In this document: positions 39-22,819 of the stretch, one piece after another | Layout of the letters: each line of letters begins with the position of its first letter | How positions within the stretch are numbered: position 1 is the first letter of the stretch | Source: Psychromonas sp. psych-6C06 | GTDB taxonomy: Bacteria; Pseudomonadota; Gammaproteobacteria; Enterobacterales; Psychromonadaceae | Assembly (NCBI RefSeq): GCF_002835465.1 | Contig: NZ_PIZM01000002.1 | Span: forward strand, 734,398 to 798,397 | Length of the DNA stretch: 64,000 bases | Reading direction: 5' to 3' | Program-made: the position numbers and the translations under genes | The notes under the pieces: generated by a model | The model's database searches: none | Seen by the model: the letters and a program-made list of their open reading frames with translations, nothing else | What the model was told of the DNA's origin: nothing

Positions 39-1010
39 TCAACCTCGGAACTTATCTTGGTTATCAACAAACCATTGATAAGACATACCTAAACCATCTT
101 CTAACGAAACAGAATATTTCCATCCAAGCGATTCCACTCTATTAACATTCATCAATTTACGAGGAGCACCATCAGGTTTAGATTCATCAAATTTAATTTC
201 CCCTTCAAAGCCAACTACTTTCGCAACTGTTTCGACTAACTCTTTAATAGTGCAATCTACGCCTGTACCTACATTGATATGACTTAACATCGGTTGAGTA
301 TTTGCCTCATAAGTCGATTGTTCTAAATTCATTACATGGATAGAAGCAGCAGCCATATCATCGACATATAAAAACTCACGCTTAGGTTTACCGCTCCCCC
401 ATGCCATCACTTCTTTGTCGTTATTTAATTTAGCTTCGTGGAAACGACGCAACAATGCAGGTATAACATGGCTATTTTCAGGATGAAAATTATCATGAGC
501 ACCATAAAGGTTGGTTGGCATAACACTTCGATAATCTCGACTGTACTGACGGTTATAACTTTCACACAATTTAATGCCCGCTATTTTAGCAATGGCATAA
601 GGCTCATTAGTTTCTTCTAGAGTACCCGTTAATAGTGCCGATTCCATCATTGGTTGACTAGCTAATTTCGGATAGATACATGAAGAGCCCAAAAATAATA
701 GTTGTTGAACATCTGCTAAGTGTGCACTGTGAATAATATTGCACTGAATCATCAGATTTTCATAAATAAAATCAGCAGGGTAAGTATTGTTTGCCACTAT
801 CCCGCCAACCTTAGCAGCAGCTAAATAAACTTGCTCAATTCCTTCGCTCTCAAAAAAATCACACACAGCTTTTTGATTGGTTAAATCTAACTCGCAACGC
901 TTACGTGTAATGATATTAGTATAACCATTGGCTTTAAGTTGGCGAACAATTGCAGCCCCCACCATGCCACGATGCCCTGCCACAAAAACCTTTGCATTTA
1001 ACGCAGACAT
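39..1010 (-). CDS. fcl: GDP-L-fucose synthase (epimerase/reductase)
   Basis: Converts GDP-4-keto-6-deoxy-D-mannose to GDP-L-fucose with NADPH, the last step of GDP-fucose supply for surface polysaccharide. About 323 residues, the usual family length. An extended SDR fold is visible: the nucleotide loop GHRGMVG at residues 12-18, the catalytic Ser in LGSSCIYP near 109-110, and the YAIAK motif with Tyr138 and Lys142. The ATG at 1010 is chosen over an upstream start at 1073 because homologues begin just before the Rossmann loop and the longer start would overlap gmd by about 60 bp. gmd ends 4 bp upstream, so the two are translationally close. It is the last gene seen before the window edge; the operon probably continues. 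Confidence 0.96.
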
Positions 1011-1014
1011 TTTA

Positions 1015-2148
1015 TTATCCTTGATTTTCAATTGAGATTGCAACATCATGTCCGTGTGCTTTAAGTAATGCATGTTGCTTAGCTTTACTTAAATCATTTT
1101 TAACCATTTCTGAACACATCTCTTCAACGGTTATCTGTGGAACCCAGCCTAACTTTTCTTTTGCTTTTGTAGGGTCTCCAAGCAATGTCTCAACTTCAGC
1201 AGGTCGGAAATATCTAGGATCAACCTTAACAATCACATCTCCAACTTTAATTGCAGGAGCATTATCACCAATAACTGCAGTAACAGTAGCAATTTCGTTA
1301 ATGCCCTCGCCAGAGAATACTAACTCAATGCCAGCTTCTTTAGCAGAAAGTGTTACAAACTCACGAACACTAATTTGCTTGCCAGTTGCAATTACAAAGT
1401 CATCTGCTTTGTCTTGTTGTAACATCATCCACTGCATACGAACATAGTCTTTTGCATGACCCCAGTCGCGTAATGCATCCATATTACCCAGGTATAAACA
1501 CTTTTCTAACCCTTGAGAGATATTAGCAATAGCGCGTGTGATTTTACGGGTCACAAAGGTTTCACCACGGCGTGGTGATTCATGGTTAAATAAGATTCCG
1601 TTACAAGCGTACATGCCGTAAGATTCTCGGTAGTTAACTACAATCCAGTAGGCATACATTTTAGCGACAGCATAAGGTGAACGCGGGTGAAATGGTGTTG
1701 TTTCTTTTTGCGGGATCTCTTGCACTTCACCGTAAAGCTCAGAAGTAGAAGCTTGGTAGAATTTTGTTTTCTTTTCTAAACCTAAAAAGCGGATTGCCTC
1801 TAACAGACGTAACGTGCCCATTGCATCTACATCTGCTGTATATTCAGGGCATTCAAAAGAAACCGCTACGTGAGATTGCGCACCTAGGTTGTAAACTTCA
1901 TCTGGTTGCACATCTTTAATAATGCGCGTTAAATTAGATGAATCGGTTAAGTCACCGTAGTGTAAGAAAAAATTTTGATTTTTTTCGTGGTTATCTTGAT
2001 AGATATGGTCAACACGTTCAGTGTTTAAAGAAGATGCGCGGCGCTTGATACCATGAACTTCATAACCTTTTTCTAGTAGTAATTCAGCAAGGTATGAGCC
2101 ATCTTGACCTGTAACACCTGTTATTAACGCAACTTTTTTATTTGACAT
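1015..2148 (-). CDS. gmd: GDP-mannose 4,6-dehydratase
   Basis: Dehydrates GDP-D-mannose to GDP-4-keto-6-deoxymannose, feeding the fcl product next door. 377 residues, full length. Seen: NADP-binding loop GVTGQDG at 11-17, the active-site stretch ASTSELYG (Thr135, Glu137) and SPYAVAK with Tyr159 and Lys163, which line up with the catalytic residues of the E. coli enzyme shifted by two. The start at 2148 gives [11 protein letters not shown], the expected N-terminus. It follows manB after a 111-bp gap holding an octamer repeat and is tightly followed by fcl. Cytoplasmic; part of the GDP-mannose/GDP-fucose block. Confidence 0.97.
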
Positions 2149-2242: not shown

Positions 2243-2266
2243 GTTAATTGGTTAATTGGTTAATTA
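2243..2266. repeat. Triple octamer repeat at the manB stop codon
   Basis: Three head-to-tail copies of GTTAATTG (the last ends in A) lie at 2243-2266 in the manB-gmd gap. The manB stop codon (2260-2262, read on minus) falls inside the third copy, so slippage here could shift the last residue or stop of ManB. No function can be assigned. Confidence 0.6.
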
Positions 2267-3696
2267 AATTTTTGTATATTTTGCAGTGCTTTCAAAACAA
2301 TCTCATATGCTTGAGCATAGGTACAAGCTTCAGCATAACAACGTAACTCTGGCGCATTGCCAGATGGCCGAAGGTGAATAACGCTATTATCTGCTAATGT
2401 AACTCTTAAACCATCAGTTTGATCAACATTTTTAATCTCTAAATTTTCAAAGCCTAATTGTAACATTAATTTTGCAGGTTCCTGCTGTCCTTGAGCAATA
2501 ATTGCTTGGCTTTTTTCTGTTGCAAAATTTTGGATACGGTCACTATGCGTAAAGCGCTGTGGTAAAGTATTTACTAACCTTGAAATAACGCCATCACCTG
2601 CGGCAACCAGTAACATAATAGCAGGAAGAATAGCATCGCGAGTCGGCAACCTTTTTAATGACTTACCACCCAAGTGCACATCACTACCGAGTATGAAGCC
2701 ACCATTTGCCTCAAAGCCAGCTACTGAACTAAATTTTTTAGCTAAAGTAGCAAATTCAGCAATGACATAAGGTGAGCCAATTTTTGTTCTTTCAACATGC
2801 TTGAATTTCTGGCTTAATTCTACTGCTGTATTAGTACTAACAGGTACTGTTAATGCTTCTATATTTAATGCTTCGGCAGCTAACAAACCGAGAATATCTC
2901 CTCGCAACCAGTTTCCATTTTCATCCGATACTAATGGGCGGTCACCATCCCCATCTGTTGAGAATACTAAATCTAGGTTATGTTCTTTAGACCAATTTAT
3001 TGCTTTTAGAGTATCTTCTTTTGAAACCGCTTCTGTATCAATAGGCACGAATTTATCGCTACGCTCTAGCGCAATTACTTCAGCACCTAGCGCTTCAAAG
3101 ATTCGGCAATATAGATCGCGACCTGCACTAGAGTGTTCGTAAATACCGATACGTTTACCAGTTAACCAAGGCGAGTCAAACAGAGACGTGTAACGGTTAA
3201 TATATTCTTCTGCGGCATAATTATTCGTAATTAGCTCAGGCAATTTATCTAATGCTATAAATTCAACCAGTGCATTAATAATCACTTGCTCATCAGCTTT
3301 GCTAATTTCACCATCTGGGCGGTAAAATTTAAGACCATTTCGATCAAAAGGAATATGACTGCCAGTTACCATGATGGCTGGCATAGCATATTCTTGAGCA
3401 ACGTATGCCAAGGCAGGTGTTGGAACTACGCCGTAGTATACTGTTTCGATATCCAATTGTTTTAGTGCTTCAACACATGCTTGTGCCATGGCATAACTAC
3501 TAGGACGGTTATCAATAGCGATAGCTACAGTTTCAAAATTGAAATTGTTTTTCATGCCAGCAATAAAAGCAACAGCAAACGCGGCACATACATCGGGACT
3601 GAACTCAGTGACTAAACCACGAGCACCACTTGTGCCAAATGCAACACCGCTTTCAGCAATGACTTTTGAACTTATTAAAGTTGAATTATTTAGCAT
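2260..3696 (-). CDS. manB: Phosphomannomutase
   Basis: Interconverts mannose-6-phosphate and mannose-1-phosphate for GDP-mannose synthesis by the adjacent manC. 478 residues. Seen in order: the catalytic phosphoserine loop TGSHIPFDRNG with Ser113 (a TGSHIP variant instead of TASHNP, as in CpsG-type enzymes), the Mg-binding loop DGDGDRP at 248-254, a sugar-binding loop with FEANGG, and the phosphate-binding RPSGNAPELR near the C-terminus. Nine bases separate it from manC, so it is co-transcribed. Also called cpsG. The paralogue phosphoglucosamine mutase is excluded by the TGSHIP loop and the operon context. Confidence 0.95.
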   Translation of the reverse strand: MLNNSTLISSKVIAESGVAFGTSGARGLVTEFSPDVCAAFAVAFIAGMKNNFNFETVAIAIDNRPSSYAMAQACVEALKQLDIETVYYGVVPTPALAYVAQEYAMPAIMVTGSHIPFDRNGLKFYRPDGEISKADEQVIINALVEFIALDKLPELITNNYAAEEYINRYTSLFDSPWLTGKRIGIYEHSSAGRDLYCRIFEALGAEVIALERSDKFVPIDTEAVSKEDTLKAINWSKEHNLDLVFSTDGDGDRPLVSDENGNWLRGDILGLLAAEALNIEALTVPVSTNTAVELSQKFKHVERTKIGSPYVIAEFATLAKKFSSVAGFEANGGFILGSDVHLGGKSLKRLPTRDAILPAIMLLVAAGDGVISRLVNTLPQRFTHSDRIQNFATEKSQAIIAQGQQEPAKLMLQLGFENLEIKNVDQTDGLRVTLADNSVIHLRPSGNAPELRCYAEACTYAQAYEIVLKALQNIQKFN

Positions 3697-3705
3697 TTTA
3701 TTACC

Positions 3706-5118
3706 TTAGGCTCGTCCATAACGGTCTTCAAATCGAACTATATCGTCTTCACCTAGGTAACTACCTGTTTGAATTTCGATCATTTCCAGCGGAATCTTGC
3801 CTGGGTTTTCTAAGGCATGTATTGTTCCAAGAGGGATATAGGTTGATTCATTTTCTGTAACTAAAATAGTTTTGTCACCGTTAAGTACACTTGCGGTGCC
3901 AGAAACAACAATCCAATGCTCTGAGCGATGGTGATGTTTTTGAATTGATAGCTTTTCACCCGGTTTTACGGTAATGCGTTTAACTTGATCACGTTTACCC
4001 GTGTCAATTGAGTCGTATTTACCCCATGGTCGATAAACTTCGCGATGTAATTTCGCTTCAGTTCGCTCAGATGCATTTAAATGATTAACAACTCTTTTTA
4101 CATCTTGAACCTTATCTTTATGCGCGACTAAAATGGCATCTTTAGTCTCGATAATGACTAGGTTATCAACACCGACCGTTGATACTAATTTGTTTTCTGC
4201 ATAAATATAATTATTCGTAGAATCAACAGTGATCACATCACCATTAATTGCGTTTTTATTTTCATCTTTTACTGATACATCCCACAATGCAGAGAATGAA
4301 CCAACATCACTCCAACCTGCATCCATCGGCACAACGACAACATCATCGCTTTTCTCCATTACCGCATAGTCAACAGAGTCATTTGGACAAGTTTCAAAGA
4401 TAGCTTTATCGACACGTACAAACTCTTGGTCTTTTGATGGCGCTGCAATCGCGCGTTTACAGACATCTAACATCTCTGGTGCGAATTTTTCTAATTCTTC
4501 AAGGTAACGACTTGCTTTCAACAGGAACATACCACTGTTCCAATAGTACCCCCCCTCAGCTATGTAAGTTTCTGCTGTCATTAAATTTGGTTTTTCTACA
4601 AACTCGCTCACCGAGTAAGCATTACCATTTTGTTCACCAGATTTAATATATCCATAACCTGTTTCTGGTGCTGTAGGTACGATGCCAAATGTTACCAGCT
4701 GCCCACTTTGTGCAAATGGCAATGCATTTTGAACTGATTCTTGAAATGCACTTGTATTCTCAATAATATGATCAGCAGCAAGCACTAATAATATAGGATC
4801 TTCGCCCTCGGATACATTGTTAACTACTTGAAGCGCAGCAAGTGCGATAGCAGGTGCGGTATTTCTGCCAACCGGTTCAAGAATGATCCCCCCATGTTCA
4901 TATCCGGCCAAACGCATTTGTTCAGCAGCAATAAAACGATGTTCTTCATTACAGATTAAAACCGGCGCAGTATGCTCAATATCAGCTAAACGAGCAACGG
5001 TTTGTTGCAACATTGATTGCTCACCGGTGACTGTTAAAAATTGCTTTGGATAAAGCTCACGTGAAAGTGGCCATAATCGACTACCGGTGCCGCCTGCCAT
5101 AATAACGGGTAAAATCAT
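3706..5118 (-). CDS. manC: Mannose-1-phosphate guanylyltransferase / mannose-6-phosphate isomerase
   Basis: Bifunctional type II enzyme making GDP-mannose from mannose-1-phosphate and GTP, with an isomerase domain for fructose-6-phosphate entry. 470 residues, typical. The N-terminal nucleotidyltransferase domain shows [20 protein letters not shown] (residues 8-27) and a FVEKPN motif; the C-terminal cupin (from about 360) shows PWGKYDSID, a metal-binding HHHRSEHW and the closing [13 protein letters not shown]. It lies between gmm (14 bp upstream) and manB (9 bp downstream). Also named cpsB. Nothing unusual is seen. Confidence 0.97.
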
Positions 5119-5132
5119 ATTGAATCCCTAAT

Positions 5133-5621
5133 CTATTTTAAAAATTTACGACGAAGAACTGTCTGTTTAGCATACGGCTCAAAATACCAACGCGTATGCT
5201 TATGTACTTGCGGATGTTCAAGTAGTTGCTCTACACCAAACCAGTTGTAGTCATTATGTTGCTTCGTTGGTAATGCTAATAATTCGTCATCAATCGTCAA
5301 ACGATAGCCAAGCGCTACGTAGTGTGTGCTGAAATCTTCACCTGTTAGATTATTTGTATAAAAATGGTCAAATGGACCGATTAGTTGCGCATCTAATATT
5401 GTAAACTCAGTGCCTAACTCATTTAAGGTTAAGCGTTTAAAAGCCTCAGCCATCGATTCATCTTTAAGAATGCGCCCACCAGGTACAAACCAATAACCTT
5501 GTGCAGGACGATTGTTGCGTTTACCTAGAAGTACCTCCCCCTTTTGGTTATAAACAACTAGATCTATCGATACGAGAGGGGTATTTTTTATGATAGATTT
5601 AAAGGTATCTAGTGGTAACAT
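5133..5621 (-). CDS. gmm: GDP-mannose mannosyl hydrolase (Nudix)
   Basis: Hydrolyses GDP-mannose to GDP and mannose, probably to balance the GDP-mannose pool in capsule/EPS clusters. Conserved blocks STPLVS-like NTPLVSID, LLGKRNNRPAQGYWFVP and the modified Nudix box beginning GGRILKDES match this subfamily, which lacks one of the usual Nudix glutamates. The ATG at 5621 is preferred to the in-frame GTG at 5630: it gives the family N-terminal length and has a GAGAG ribosome site about 8 nt upstream. First gene of the operon, 181 bp downstream of the ops element. Confidence 0.93.
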   Translation of the reverse strand: MLPLDTFKSIIKNTPLVSIDLVVYNQKGEVLLGKRNNRPAQGYWFVPGGRILKDESMAEAFKRLTLNELGTEFTILDAQLIGPFDHFYTNNLTGEDFSTHYVALGYRLTIDDELLALPTKQHNDYNWFGVEQLLEHPQVHKHTRWYFEPYAKQTVLRRKFLK

Positions 5622-6090
5622 TGGGTGCACTCTCTTAAACGTTATATTAAATAAAAATGTGTGGTTATTCGTTTTTCTAGTTAGCTCAGCAAAGTCAGCA
5701 ACACATATTTATTTTATTTTGAGACAACAGTTTTATCATCATTGTAAAGCCTAAGTATTAACTCACTTATTTAAAGCCCCTAAAAATATTTTAAATTCAA
5801 CCACGCTACCGCCACTTGGTTTTATAAAAGCCAGTATCTAATTTCATAATTTTGAGCGCGTAATTTATCGTACTTTGACTAAAATTACCATGCTGACAGA
5901 CTCTCTTTATATTTTATTTGCTTAAGATGAGTGGCGAGACTTTATTAACGATATCAGTAATAGTAATCACCATTAACCAAGTCCCAATACAATAACCCTT
6001 ATATTTATCTGAATTTATAGAAACAACTAGTGAGTTTTTGGACTATCCCGTAACATATTGCATTGAAAATATATAGCTAGCAGACGATTA
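5622..6090 (-). other. Operon leader and divergent intergenic region
   Basis: A 469-bp AT-rich region between the polysaccharide operon (minus) and the rfaH remnant (plus). It contains the ops element described separately. I see no ORF of coding character and could not define promoters with confidence. The operon leader is at least 190 nt if transcription starts upstream of ops. Confidence 0.5.
5802..5813 (-). promoter_or_regulatory. ops: ops element (RfaH recruitment site)
   Basis: Read on the minus strand these bases are GGCGGTAGCGTG, a perfect match to the E. coli ops consensus at the 3' end of JUMPstart sequences. It lies 181 nt upstream of the gmm start, the expected leader position for an RfaH-controlled polysaccharide operon. 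In known systems ops in the non-template DNA of paused RNA polymerase recruits RfaH, which suppresses Rho-dependent polarity. A directly adjacent, decayed rfaH makes the site notable. Confidence 0.85.
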
Positions 6091-6597
6091 ATGAGCAAAC
6101 AATAGTTTATTGTGTATTATAAAAGTCGGGAAGAGGAACGTGCTTTTCAGCATTTACACAATCAGGGGATCACCTCTTTTTCCCAAAAATCAAAAAAAGA
6201 AGCTATTACGAGGAAAGAAAGTATTAGCTACAGAGGCTTTATTTCCTAGTTATCTATTTGTTCACCTTGAGCAAGATAATTGTAATTTTAATAGCTTACG
6301 CTCTACGCGTGGCGTGAATAGTTTTATCCGTTTTGGAGGGCAGATGGCAAAGCATCCGATGCGCTTGTTTCTGAATTATAGCAGATTTGCCATCGTCTGA
6401 ATGAATTTGAGGCTGATACTAAATCGTTATTTGAAAAAGGCGATCAAGTCGAGATAACAGAAGGTGCATTTCAAGGCGCAAAAGGAATATTCACTTGCGA
6501 AAATGGATTATAGAGCTCAATGCTGTTACTCAACATACTTAACCAAGAGAAAAAATATCTTTTACTAATAAAACAATTAAAAAAATTAGAGGTCACC
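6091..6597 (+). pseudogene. rfaH: Decayed transcription antiterminator RfaH
   Basis: Conceptual translation over three segments aligns end-to-end with RfaH: MSKQ*FIVYYKSREEERAFQ (frame 1), LLRGKKVLATEALFPSYLFV then STRGVNSFIRFGG (frame 2), then KGDQVEITEGAFQGAKGIF and SSMLLLNIL (frame 1). Lesions: TAG at 6103 replacing the Trp of the N-terminal motif, a shift near 6180, a shift back near 6353, TAG at 6379 and TAG at 6511. The natural stop also seems lost, because the C-terminal frame reads through into glpG without interruption. RfaH is a NusG paralogue that binds ops and couples RNA polymerase to ribosomes. A working copy, if any, must be elsewhere. Confidence 0.9.
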
Positions 6598-7431
6598 ATG
6601 GTACTTCATCAATTCCAAAACCTACGTATTGCGCAAGCTTTCTCGGACTATTTATCACAGTTGCAAATATCTAATAGTATCGAACATGATAGTTTTCACT
6701 ACCACGTAGTGTTAAATGACCTTACTCAAGTTGAGAGAGCGCAAGCCGAATTAGCGCTTTTTTTAGAAAACCCTAATCAAGAAAAATACTTGTCTGCTAG
6801 CTGGGAAACGGGAAATACTGACACTCCTCGCTCTGAACTTGCTTACGCAAACTCACACTTAGTGAGAAACTTTATTGACCATGCTGGTTGGCTAACGCTG
6901 TCTGTTTTTCTGTTTTGTGTGGTTATTTATGCGCTAAATACGCTTGGTATGTTCCAGCCGATGCAATCGGGATTGGCATTTTTTACTTATCAACCCTTTG
7001 ATTATTCAGAAAGTTGGCGCTTTATTACCCCTGCTTTTTTACATTTTAGCGCACTACATATCGTCTTTAATTTACTTTGGTGGTGGCAACTTGCTGGTGT
7101 GGTTGAGAAGCAACAAGGTAAACAGCGCCTATTATTGCTTTTCCTGTTTAGCGCTATCGCCTCAAATCTTGCGCAATATTTTTTAGTCGGCCCCTATTTT
7201 GGTGGGCTAAGTGGTGTTGTTTATGGTTTGGTGGGTTACTGCTGGTTATTTGGCATGCTTAATAAAAACAGTATTGTAAATCTTCCCAACTCATATTTCG
7301 CATTTTTACTGGGCTGGTTAGCATTAGGATTTATCGATGTTTTACCAATGAATGTGGCCAACTATGCCCACTTAGTTGGATTGTTAGCAGGTTTATTGTT
7401 GGCTTTTGTGGTTTCTAAATTAAAATTATAA
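6598..7431 (+). CDS. glpG: Rhomboid intramembrane serine protease GlpG
   Basis: Cleaves transmembrane substrates within the inner membrane. The ATG at 6598 gives 277 residues against 276 for E. coli GlpG and follows GAGGTCACC. An N-terminal cytoplasmic domain (about 1-80) precedes six membrane helices. Catalytic residues are visible: Ser205 in GGLSGVVYG and His258 in NYAHLVG, with the oxyanion-region HIVFNLLWWW at 154-163. The reading frame is open upstream to 6520 but that part encodes the tail of the rfaH remnant, so a longer fused start is unlikely though not excluded. A strong terminator follows. Confidence 0.95.
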   Translation: MVLHQFQNLRIAQAFSDYLSQLQISNSIEHDSFHYHVVLNDLTQVERAQAELALFLENPNQEKYLSASWETGNTDTPRSELAYANSHLVRNFIDHAGWLTLSVFLFCVVIYALNTLGMFQPMQSGLAFFTYQPFDYSESWRFITPAFLHFSALHIVFNLLWWWQLAGVVEKQQGKQRLLLLFLFSAIASNLAQYFLVGPYFGGLSGVVYGLVGYCWLFGMLNKNSIVNLPNSYFAFLLGWLALGFIDVLPMNVANYAHLVGLLAGLLLAFVVSKLKL

Positions 7432-9441: not shown

Positions 9442-10288
9442 GTCATCCTCGAAGTGGGTGAGGATCTGCTTAGCTAATAGCTACGCACTGGGATTCCCGA
9501 TAAAACAATTCGGGAATGACGTTTTATGTCAGGGTAATAGCCACACGCAAATATCGTCATCCTCGAAGTGGGTTATCGAGGATCTGTTTAGCAAATAGCT
9601 ACGTACAAAGATTCCCGATAAAACAATTCGGGAATGACGTTTTATGTCAGGGTAATAGCCACACGCAAATATCGTCATCCTCGAAGTGGGTTATCGAGGA
9701 TCTAATTACGCAAATAGCTACGCACTGGGATTCCCGATAAAACAATTCGGGAATGACGTTTTATGTCAGGGTAATAGCCACACGCAAATATCGTCATCCT
9801 CGAAGTGGGTTATCGAGGATCTAATTAGGCAAATAGCTACGCACTGGGATTCCCGATAAAACAATTCGGGAATGACAGTTATGAATAGGATAATTACTAT
9901 ACGCAAATATCGTCATCCTCGAAGTGGGTTATCGAGGATCTAATTACGCAAATAGCTACGCACTGGGATTCCCGATAAAACAATTCGGGAATGACAGTTA
10001 TGAATAGGGGTAATAGCCACACGCAAATACCGTCATCCTCGAAGTAGGTTATCGAGGATCTGTTTAGCAAATAGCTACGTACAAAGATTCCCGATAAAAC
10101 AACTCGGGAATGACGGCTATGAATAGGGGTAATAGCCACAAGCAAATATCGTCATCCTCGAAGTGAGTTATCGAGGATCTACTTGGGCTAATAGCTACGC
10201 ACTGAGATTCCCGATAAAACAGCTCAGGAATGACTTTTTATGAGATAACAGCACCTCGAAATTATCGATAAAGCAATTGGGGATGACG
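9442..10288. repeat. Tandem array of double-hairpin (REPIN-like) units, left part
   Basis: Seven units start at 9442, 9556, 9674, 9793, 9912, 10032 and 10151 (spacing 114-120 bp), plus a degenerate piece near 10254-10288. Each unit has an 83-84 bp core (79 in the first) with two hairpins: GTCATCCTCGA...TCGAGGATCT and, about 25 bp on, AGATTCCCGA...TCGGGAATGAC. The second is the reverse complement of the first at 23 of 30 positions, and two of the differences are compensatory in the 8-bp stem (C-G to T-A, T-A to C-G). The linkers are also conserved, so units multiplied as a 119-bp block. The region otherwise holds no gene. Confidence 0.93.
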
Positions 10289-10316
10289 GAATGACGTATA
10301 AAGGCTCTTTCGCAAT

Positions 10317-10610
10317 TCAATAAATTATAGAGGATAGATCTTTCCATTCTGGATTTTGTTTATTTATTAAGTTTATTTTCCAAGCCCTATTCCAATGTTT
10401 TAACTGCTTTTCTCTGGTGATCGCATCGTACATAGTTTCGTGCATCTCGAAATAGATTAGATTTTTTAAGTAATATTTTTCGCTAAAACCTTTAGTAGTT
10501 CCAGCTTTATGTTGCGCAATACGTTGTCTTAAGTTGCTTGTCACACCAATGTACAACACTCCCTCTTTTTTGTTTGATAACATATATGTACATGGTTGTT
10601 TTTCTACCAT
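10317..10610 (-). CDS. Solo GIY-YIG nuclease-domain protein
   Basis: 97 residues consisting almost only of a GIY-YIG nuclease domain of the small URI/COG2827 type. Seen: TYML at 8-11 (the GIY position), LYIGVTSNLRQRIAQHK at 19-35 (the YIG position and the catalytic Arg), and TREKQLKHWNRAWK with catalytic Glu67. No DNA-binding accessory domain is present. The gene splits an array of double-hairpin repeats: seven units on one side, two full and two half units on the other. Small solo GIY-YIG proteins have no firmly known role; the setting suggests a nuclease that acts on, or spreads with, the palindromes. This link is inference. Confidence 0.88.
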   Translation of the reverse strand: MVEKQPCTYMLSNKKEGVLYIGVTSNLRQRIAQHKAGTTKGFSEKYYLKNLIYFEMHETMYDAITREKQLKHWNRAWKINLINKQNPEWKDLSSIIY

Positions 10611-10693
10611 CTACATCTCCTAGGCGCCATAAGTTCAGTTGATTAAGTTTAGCTGGTAAAACACTTTTAGCTTGAAGTAGTTTGTTAGCACAC

Positions 10694-21742: not shown

Positions 21743-22819
21743 TTAGAAACCGTATTCAAGACCAACACGTAATACTAAATCAGTATCCGCATCAGGGCCA
21801 TTAACCGATGTTAGCGTTCGGCCCGCAACACGTGCATAAGGTACAAAACCATTGATGACACCCATCACTTGGAAAGATACAACGCTATCAGCATCATCTT
21901 GAGTCTGACCGTTTACTTCTGAATCCAACGTTGCAGAGTAACCAGCTTTCAAGCCAAGTGGTCCATTCCAGTATTGCGCGATTAATGAGTAAGATCCTTG
22001 TGACGCATCACCATCATGGAATTTCCAATCAGCACCGATGAAACGATCTTTAGCATCAGCGTGCTTGTATGCACCTGCGATGCTAAAACCGCCAGGAAGA
22101 CCCGCTTCAAAACCTAAGAAGTAAGTGCTTACATCACCACCTTCGTAGTAAGTTTTAGTTGCGTCGTCAGTGTACCCACCCTTGAAGTTTTTGTTACCCT
22201 CGTATGCAGCCATCAAGGTTACTGTGCTAATGGTGTATTTAGCATTAGCACCAACAAAATAAGAGCCTTCTTTTGATGAATCACCGCGACCTGTCGATGC
22301 AGCAAAATTAAAGCCAGACCATGTAGGAGAGTCATAACGAATTTGATCAGAGTGACGATCGTTGTAGCCTTTTACGCTACCGCCCCAGTCAAAAACGATA
22401 CCTAAACCGGGGTTAGAGAATGGCCAATCAATAAGTTCATACATTGGCGTTAATACACGACCAAAACGTACTTTACCCCAATCACCGCCTAAACCAACGA
22501 AAGTATCACGTACACCCAAAGAACCTGATGCGCCAGGGCCAGTATTGCCGAAGTTACCAACATAGCCAGATTCTACCTGTATAAATACATGTAGATCGTC
22601 TGTCATATTTTTACCTGCACGGAAACCAACACGTGATTCATTTTCAAGCTCATAACCGGTACTAGCATCACGGTTATCAGTTACGTTATAACTTACTGCA
22701 GAGATAGCAGCCACACCGTAAACGGTCATTGGCACTTCATCATTTACGCCAATTTCGTAAGCGGATGCTGAAAATGCTGCAGTCGTTAGTGCCGCAGCAA
22801 CAAGTGTTTTCTTAAACAT
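21743..22819 (-). CDS. Outer-membrane general porin 2 (OmpU/OmpC type)
   Basis: 358 residues, same length as porin 1. Signal peptide MFKKTLVAAALTTAAFSASA (1-20). Shared strand motifs with porin 1: ESRVGFRAG, LGVRDTFVGLGGDWGKVRFGR, DWPFSNPGLGIVFDW against DWPHSNPGLGNVFDW, and a terminal Phe (VGLEYGF). Loops are quite different, so the pair is an old duplication with diverged surface or channel properties. Its module lacks a DUF2057 gene but has the fusion lipoprotein. A promoter is expected in the 319-bp upstream gap. Confidence 0.93.
   Translation of the reverse strand: MFKKTLVAAALTTAAFSASAYEIGVNDEVPMTVYGVAAISAVSYNVTDNRDASTGYELENESRVGFRAGKNMTDDLHVFIQVESGYVGNFGNTGPGASGSLGVRDTFVGLGGDWGKVRFGRVLTPMYELIDWPFSNPGLGIVFDWGGSVKGYNDRHSDQIRYDSPTWSGFNFAASTGRGDSSKEGSYFVGANAKYTISTVTLMAAYEGNKNFKGGYTDDATKTYYEGGDVSTYFLGFEAGLPGGFSIAGAYKHADAKDRFIGADWKFHDGDASQGSYSLIAQYWNGPLGLKAGYSATLDSEVNGQTQDDADSVVSFQVMGVINGFVPYARVAGRTLTSVNGPDADTDLVLRVGLEYGF

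Follow-up and report, generated by a model that had tools for sequence, protein, structure and literature searches.

RfaH loads onto RNA polymerase paused at an ops element and stops Rho and NusG from ending the transcription of long polysaccharide operons. The RfaH/ops system of Escherichia coli (TIGR01955; PDB 2OUG, 5OND, 6C6S) has the same 12-nt ops and the same kind of target, a long polysaccharide operon, as the locus described here. Polysaccharide genes are common neighbors of rfaH (Wang et al. 2020, PMC7593976). Without RfaH, Yersinia pseudotuberculosis transcribes its ops-led O-antigen cluster less strongly and makes less long O-antigen, though still some (PMC5589760), and in Salmonella, pressure from O-antigen phages selects rfaH loss mutants (PMC11538992). 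A literature search found no paper on RfaH in Psychromonas. Here we analyzed a window of 64,000 nucleotides from Psychromonas sp. psych-6C06 (NZ_PIZM01000002.1, positions 734,398 to 798,397), part of a 3.72-Mb, 32-contig draft genome with an estimated completeness of 100%. Very probably, it holds the ancestral Psychromonas rfaH/ops locus, with the sole RfaH inactivated on the species' own branch, an orphan ops and an operon that is still open.

Results

The rfaH remnant lacks an open reading frame. Frameshift-aware alignment to five intact orthologues counted three in-frame TAG codons and four one-base losses, seven lesions in 0.5 kb (Table 1); of the three TAG stops and two frameshifts in the first-pass annotation, the stops were recovered and the frameshifts doubled to four. 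Over its readable codons, the remnant retains 63–66% residue identity with the intact orthologues of its clade. Its pieces score 58.5 and 40.1 bits against the RfaH model TIGR01955, short of the curated cut-off of 144.5 bits, while ten intact Psychromonas orthologues score 160–176 bits. Eight of 65 residues invariant among intact RfaH copies are changed or lost, compared with zero to five in leave-one-out controls. Both synteny (a position beside glpG, shared with nine of ten species) and sequence make the remnant orthologous to intact RfaH. Judged from its sequence, it is an RfaH pseudogene and not a working RfaH.

The decay was further placed against the adjacent gene. RfaH identity between the window species and P. 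hadalis, P. marina and sp. Urea-02u-13 is 63–66%, whereas it reaches 75–80% among those three; GlpG identity is 80–82% and 79–82%, respectively. This drop in RfaH with GlpG unchanged indicates a decay specific to rfaH. The excess change falls at first and second codon positions and amounts to about 0.08 extra changes per site.

A search of the genome for the NusG Pfam family matched nusG, the remnant and nothing else, so that the remnant, divergent from the operon rather than inside it, is the sole NusG-family gene besides nusG. Neither TIGR01955 nor a protein search with P. hadalis RfaH that reads through stops found a second RfaH in the 32-contig draft, although one in an unassembled piece retains a small probability. 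Rho is present, and hence the polarity machinery that RfaH opposes. Taken as sequence evidence, these results support the view that the remnant, which occupies the ancestral Psychromonas position beside glpG, was formerly the one RfaH of the genome and of the E. coli type.

Table 1. Coordinates of the rfaH/ops locus (window numbering)
Feature	Position	Strand	Remarks
fcl	39..1073	minus	
gmd	1015..2148	minus	
manB-like phosphomutase	2260..3696	minus	
manC	3706..5118	minus	
gmm (GDP-mannose mannosyl hydrolase)	5133..5630	minus	first operon gene
Three bases 3' of ops, GTT	5799..5801	minus	CCT or CTT at every other exact Psychromonas GGCGGTAGCGTG leader site
ops element GGCGGTAGCGTG, 12/12	5802..5813	minus	non-coding; 171 nt upstream of the annotated gmm start, pointing into gmm-manC-manB-gmd-fcl
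Leader block ACGCGCTCAAAAT	5849..5861	minus	common to P. aquimarina and P. ossibalaenae, at a similar distance upstream of ops
-10 box position	5862..5872	minus	TATACT in P. aquimarina and P. ossibalaenae; here 4/6 matches (TACGAT / TAAATT)
rfaH pseudogene	6091..6587	plus	divergent from the ops-led operon; the genome's sole RfaH
In-frame TAG, codon 5	6103..6105	plus	at an invariant Trp; frameshift-aware alignment
Two one-base frameshifts	6175..6199	plus	near 6175 and 6198, 23 nt apart, around a well-matching FFPKIKK
Frameshift, one base lost	6350..6351	plus	frameshift-aware alignment
In-frame TAG	6379..6381	plus	frameshift-aware alignment
In-frame TAG	6511..6513	plus	C-terminal (KOW) domain; frameshift-aware alignment
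Frameshift, one base lost	6553..6554	plus	frameshift-aware alignment
glpG (rhomboid protease), intact	6598..7431	plus	conserved neighbor downstream of rfaH

The perfect 12/12 ops that had been noted in the operon leader was confirmed as an exact, non-coding GGCGGTAGCGTG. It reads as an ops under the published 12-nt definition, lying on the non-template strand in the leader before a long operon. It is the only copy in the genome by exact 12-mer search (3.72 Mb, 32 contigs), with ~0.09 copies expected by chance; the other ops sites for which the first-pass annotation had suggested a search were absent. Within the 460-bp intergenic region, GGCGGTAGCGTG would occur by chance in that orientation with a probability of about 1e-6 to 5e-6. 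The looser 11-mer GGCGGTAGNNT occurs at chance level (11 in the genome versus 20 for a reversed control), and a second GGCGGTAGCGT at 22374–22384 (minus) was rejected as a chance match, being inside a 358-aa ORF and without the conserved flank. This flank, C(C/T)T, is seen in Psychromonas and in the order and lies outside the published 12-nt definition; the orphan ops departs from it, since base 13 is G and the conserved C13 is lost. Every intact Psychromonas leader site seen keeps C13 right after the 12-nt core (L178, L172–L188 leaders).

The best -10 match in the leader reaches 4/6 here, compared with 5–6/6 in 10 of 13 other leaders, and transcription of the operon might accordingly be low for a different reason; a few relatives with intact rfaH have a -10 box as weak or weaker, and we therefore place little weight on it. 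Scanning for the sigma-70 consensus gave none at the expected -10 place and three sites overall, the same as in shuffles. JUMPstart (RF01707) had no Rfam match in this leader or in other Psychromonas leaders, and was matched in three leaders from other families. Psychromonas sp. MB-3u-54 carries two near-identical tandem ops leaders 251 bp apart (G012:C24:22551-22816, L163), as well as a leader with the variant GGCGGTAGCATGCCT (L188).

Behind ops lie 15 co-directional open genes spanning 16.6 kb. After the five in Table 1, ten more extend outside the window to G000:C2:723384, in the order Wzx-like flippase, unknown, GT4, unknown (perhaps Wzy), two GT2, epimerase, sugar-phosphate transferase, Polysacc_synt_2 dehydratase and UDP-sugar dehydrogenase; the operon is an O-antigen-like cluster. 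No lesion was found in its 16,236 coding bases, where about 227 would be expected at the lesion density of rfaH. Set against the seven lesions in the 0.5-kb rfaH, this suggests continuing selection on the operon, which probably keeps at least part of its function in the absence of RfaH.

The locus was then compared across 24 Psychromonas genomes: ten with intact RfaH, 13 without RfaH and the window's genome with its remnant. The nearest intact RfaH genes are all from the genus (P. hadalis, P. marina, sp. Urea-02u-13, P. aquimarina, P. ossibalaenae, P. antarctica, sp. MB-3u-54 and a MAG). In nine of the ten species with intact RfaH, the gene directly precedes glpG. The exception is P. antarctica, whose intact rfaH sits on another contig beside polysaccharide genes. 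Among the RfaH-less species, no rfaH remnant was found beside glpG; a 3' fragment of ~30 codons before glpG was observed in P. antarctica only (G001, L118, about 2338–2427), suggesting relocation of its rfaH. Four of the nine glpG-adjacent intact genes are also beside an ops-led cluster: in G002 (P. aquimarina), G005, G007 (P. ossibalaenae) and G018 (MAG), ops lies 328–1153 nt before rfaH on the opposite strand, as in the window. From one species to the next, the clusters downstream of ops mostly show no relationship, in contrast to the stable rfaH-glpG flank. This shared rfaH/ops/glpG layout and leader block with unrelated clusters indicates an old arrangement with swapped cargo. In G022 (L078), glpG at 9875–10652, next to an intact rfaH, seems split by a frameshift.

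The three species that a four-protein tree places nearest each carry an intact rfaH, and the gene is missing from the next lineage (G008, G010) and from a larger clade. By this pattern, RfaH was probably lost several times in the genus, with the loss in the window species caught midway. RfaH and ops occur together: all 11 genomes that carry RfaH or the remnant also have a non-coding ops (exact, or as GGCGGTAGCGTACCT in G022), and the 13 RfaH-less genomes have none (Fisher p 4e-7 over 24 genomes whose species are not independent). Matches in those 13, including the single exact copy in G003, are coding and were rejected. The window genome's ops is the only orphan seen in the genus sample.

At the order level, 34 of 197 genomes hold the exact 14-mer GGCGGTAGCGTGCNT, 31 of them with RfaH over the cut-off and one with RfaH just under it (G072, 140.0 bits). 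G124 and G185, which have the 14-mer without RfaH, were rejected as orphans, the site being inside a long open frame in both. The exact 14-mer misses partly decayed orphans like that of the window, so these figures give no orphan count. At most about 1 kb separates rfaH from ops in 5/11 Psychromonas and, read from coordinates, in 11/32 RfaH-plus-ops genomes of the order; the two are divergent in Psychromonas and in tandem (rfaH before ops) in other families. With about a third of the order's RfaH-plus-ops genomes showing it, such linkage is not unusual, in agreement with PMC7593976; the earlier statement that it is uncommon for chromosomal rfaH finds no support outside enterics.

Discussion

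Because the three nearest relatives keep rfaH intact, inactivation of the sole RfaH would fall on the window species' own branch. The locus shows that RfaH itself has been lost, with its one ops target left as an orphan in front of an open operon that seems to be still under selection. This operon is probably still transcribed without RfaH, with weaker distal expression. The first-pass annotation had reasoned that, were this the only RfaH, elongation of the operon would be poor. The genome search bears out the premise, and the 15 intact, apparently selected genes argue partly against the consequence. By analogy, the reduced but not abolished O-antigen of RfaH-deficient Y. pseudotuberculosis would fit partial operon function.

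A lesion-free operon either remains under selection, which would mean expression in the absence of RfaH, or was renewed by recombination. Under the first alternative, the operon may have become RfaH-independent through changes in its own leader or genes, such as fewer Rho sites or better ribosome loading, a possibility we hold tentatively. If it did escape, the window species and its RfaH-bearing sisters would form a natural before-and-after pair for escape from an antiterminator. Under the second, the cluster and its ops leader would have been swapped in at or after the loss of RfaH, and the operon would be intact because it is a younger import, without continuous selection having preserved it. 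The almost complete difference between clusters downstream of ops beside a constant rfaH-glpG flank is consistent with such a swap, as is a leader closer to those of P. aquimarina and P. ossibalaenae than to those of the nearest relatives. The low G+C of the middle operon genes (31–36%) points the same way, but low G+C is usual for glycosyltransferase genes of O-antigen loci, the sugar-nucleotide genes match the genome's own G+C and GC3, and the base after ops has already drifted. On balance, we regard recombination at this point as rather unlikely.

The perfect ops is no evidence of continued use. At the decay seen in rfaH, an unselected 12-mer stays 12/12 with P about 0.37. Given this neutral retention about a third of the time and the change in the conserved next base, ops is most likely a vestige in the course of being lost, or else a simple pause site by now, and not an element under selection. 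Selection for an RfaH-free role, such as a programmed leader pause or recruitment of NusG, would account for a 12/12 core beside seven rfaH lesions, and ops-like sites do pause RNA polymerases without RfaH (PMC7593976, PMC5995543); in addition to neutral retention and the altered base 13, the fact that 0/13 RfaH-less genomes keep a non-coding ops makes such a role improbable.

A further reading, in line with the other alternative of the first-pass annotation, is that a second RfaH acts in trans and that the decayed copy was a cluster-linked specialist of the TaA/LoaP/UpxY type. The remnant adjoins its target, and several NusG paralogues are encoded within theirs (PMC7593976). However, the genome, estimated as 100% complete, yielded no second RfaH, and the remnant is orthologous to the genus's single E. 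coli-like RfaH, whose intact copies exceed the family cut-off, conserve the ops-contact and autoinhibition residues, and occur in genomes that also have unlinked ops sites; we consider the proposal highly improbable. A sequencing or assembly artefact, to which four one-base losses, some in A or T runs, might point, is the remotest explanation in view of the three nonsense codons, the extra invariant-residue losses, the accelerated first- and second-position change and the open flanking genes, which make sequencing error very unlikely.

Loss of a regulator before its site is an ordinary, known process, unusually clear here since relatives show both end states. It gives the order of loss, with the protein going first, the DNA site lagging and the target operon surviving. 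For the loss of RfaH in the window species, phage selection of rfaH mutants in Salmonella offers an analogy only. A natural RfaH-null strain, together with the clean genus-wide match of RfaH and ops, allows one to ask whether long O-antigen operons need RfaH.

Comparison with known systems

Intact Psychromonas RfaH orthologues align end to end with E. coli RfaH, including the positions of K10, E48, R73 and F130. In E. coli, an intact rfaH lies away from its targets, whereas that of the window is dead, divergent from a single target and next to glpG. RfaH of Shewanella CL7 and other rfaH genes near exopolysaccharide clusters (Wang et al. 2020, PMC7593976) likewise lie close to a polysaccharide cluster; unlike in this CL7-type linkage, the window's rfaH is a divergent pseudogene, the tandem arrangement before ops being found in the order's other families. 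TaA, UpxY and LoaP are specialists present as an extra paralogue besides a genome-wide RfaH, inside their target operon, and the remnant is neither. Phage-selected rfaH nonsense and frameshift mutants (PMC11538992) have similarly lost RfaH with target genes intact, but they are laboratory-evolved, whereas the loss in the window is old enough for seven lesions. In the cryptic O-antigen cluster of Yersinia pestis (PMC5589760), an ops-led cluster and RfaH have likewise fallen out of step in genome decay, as a mirror image of the present locus: Y. pestis kept rfaH and broke its O-antigen genes, while here rfaH is broken and the operon open.
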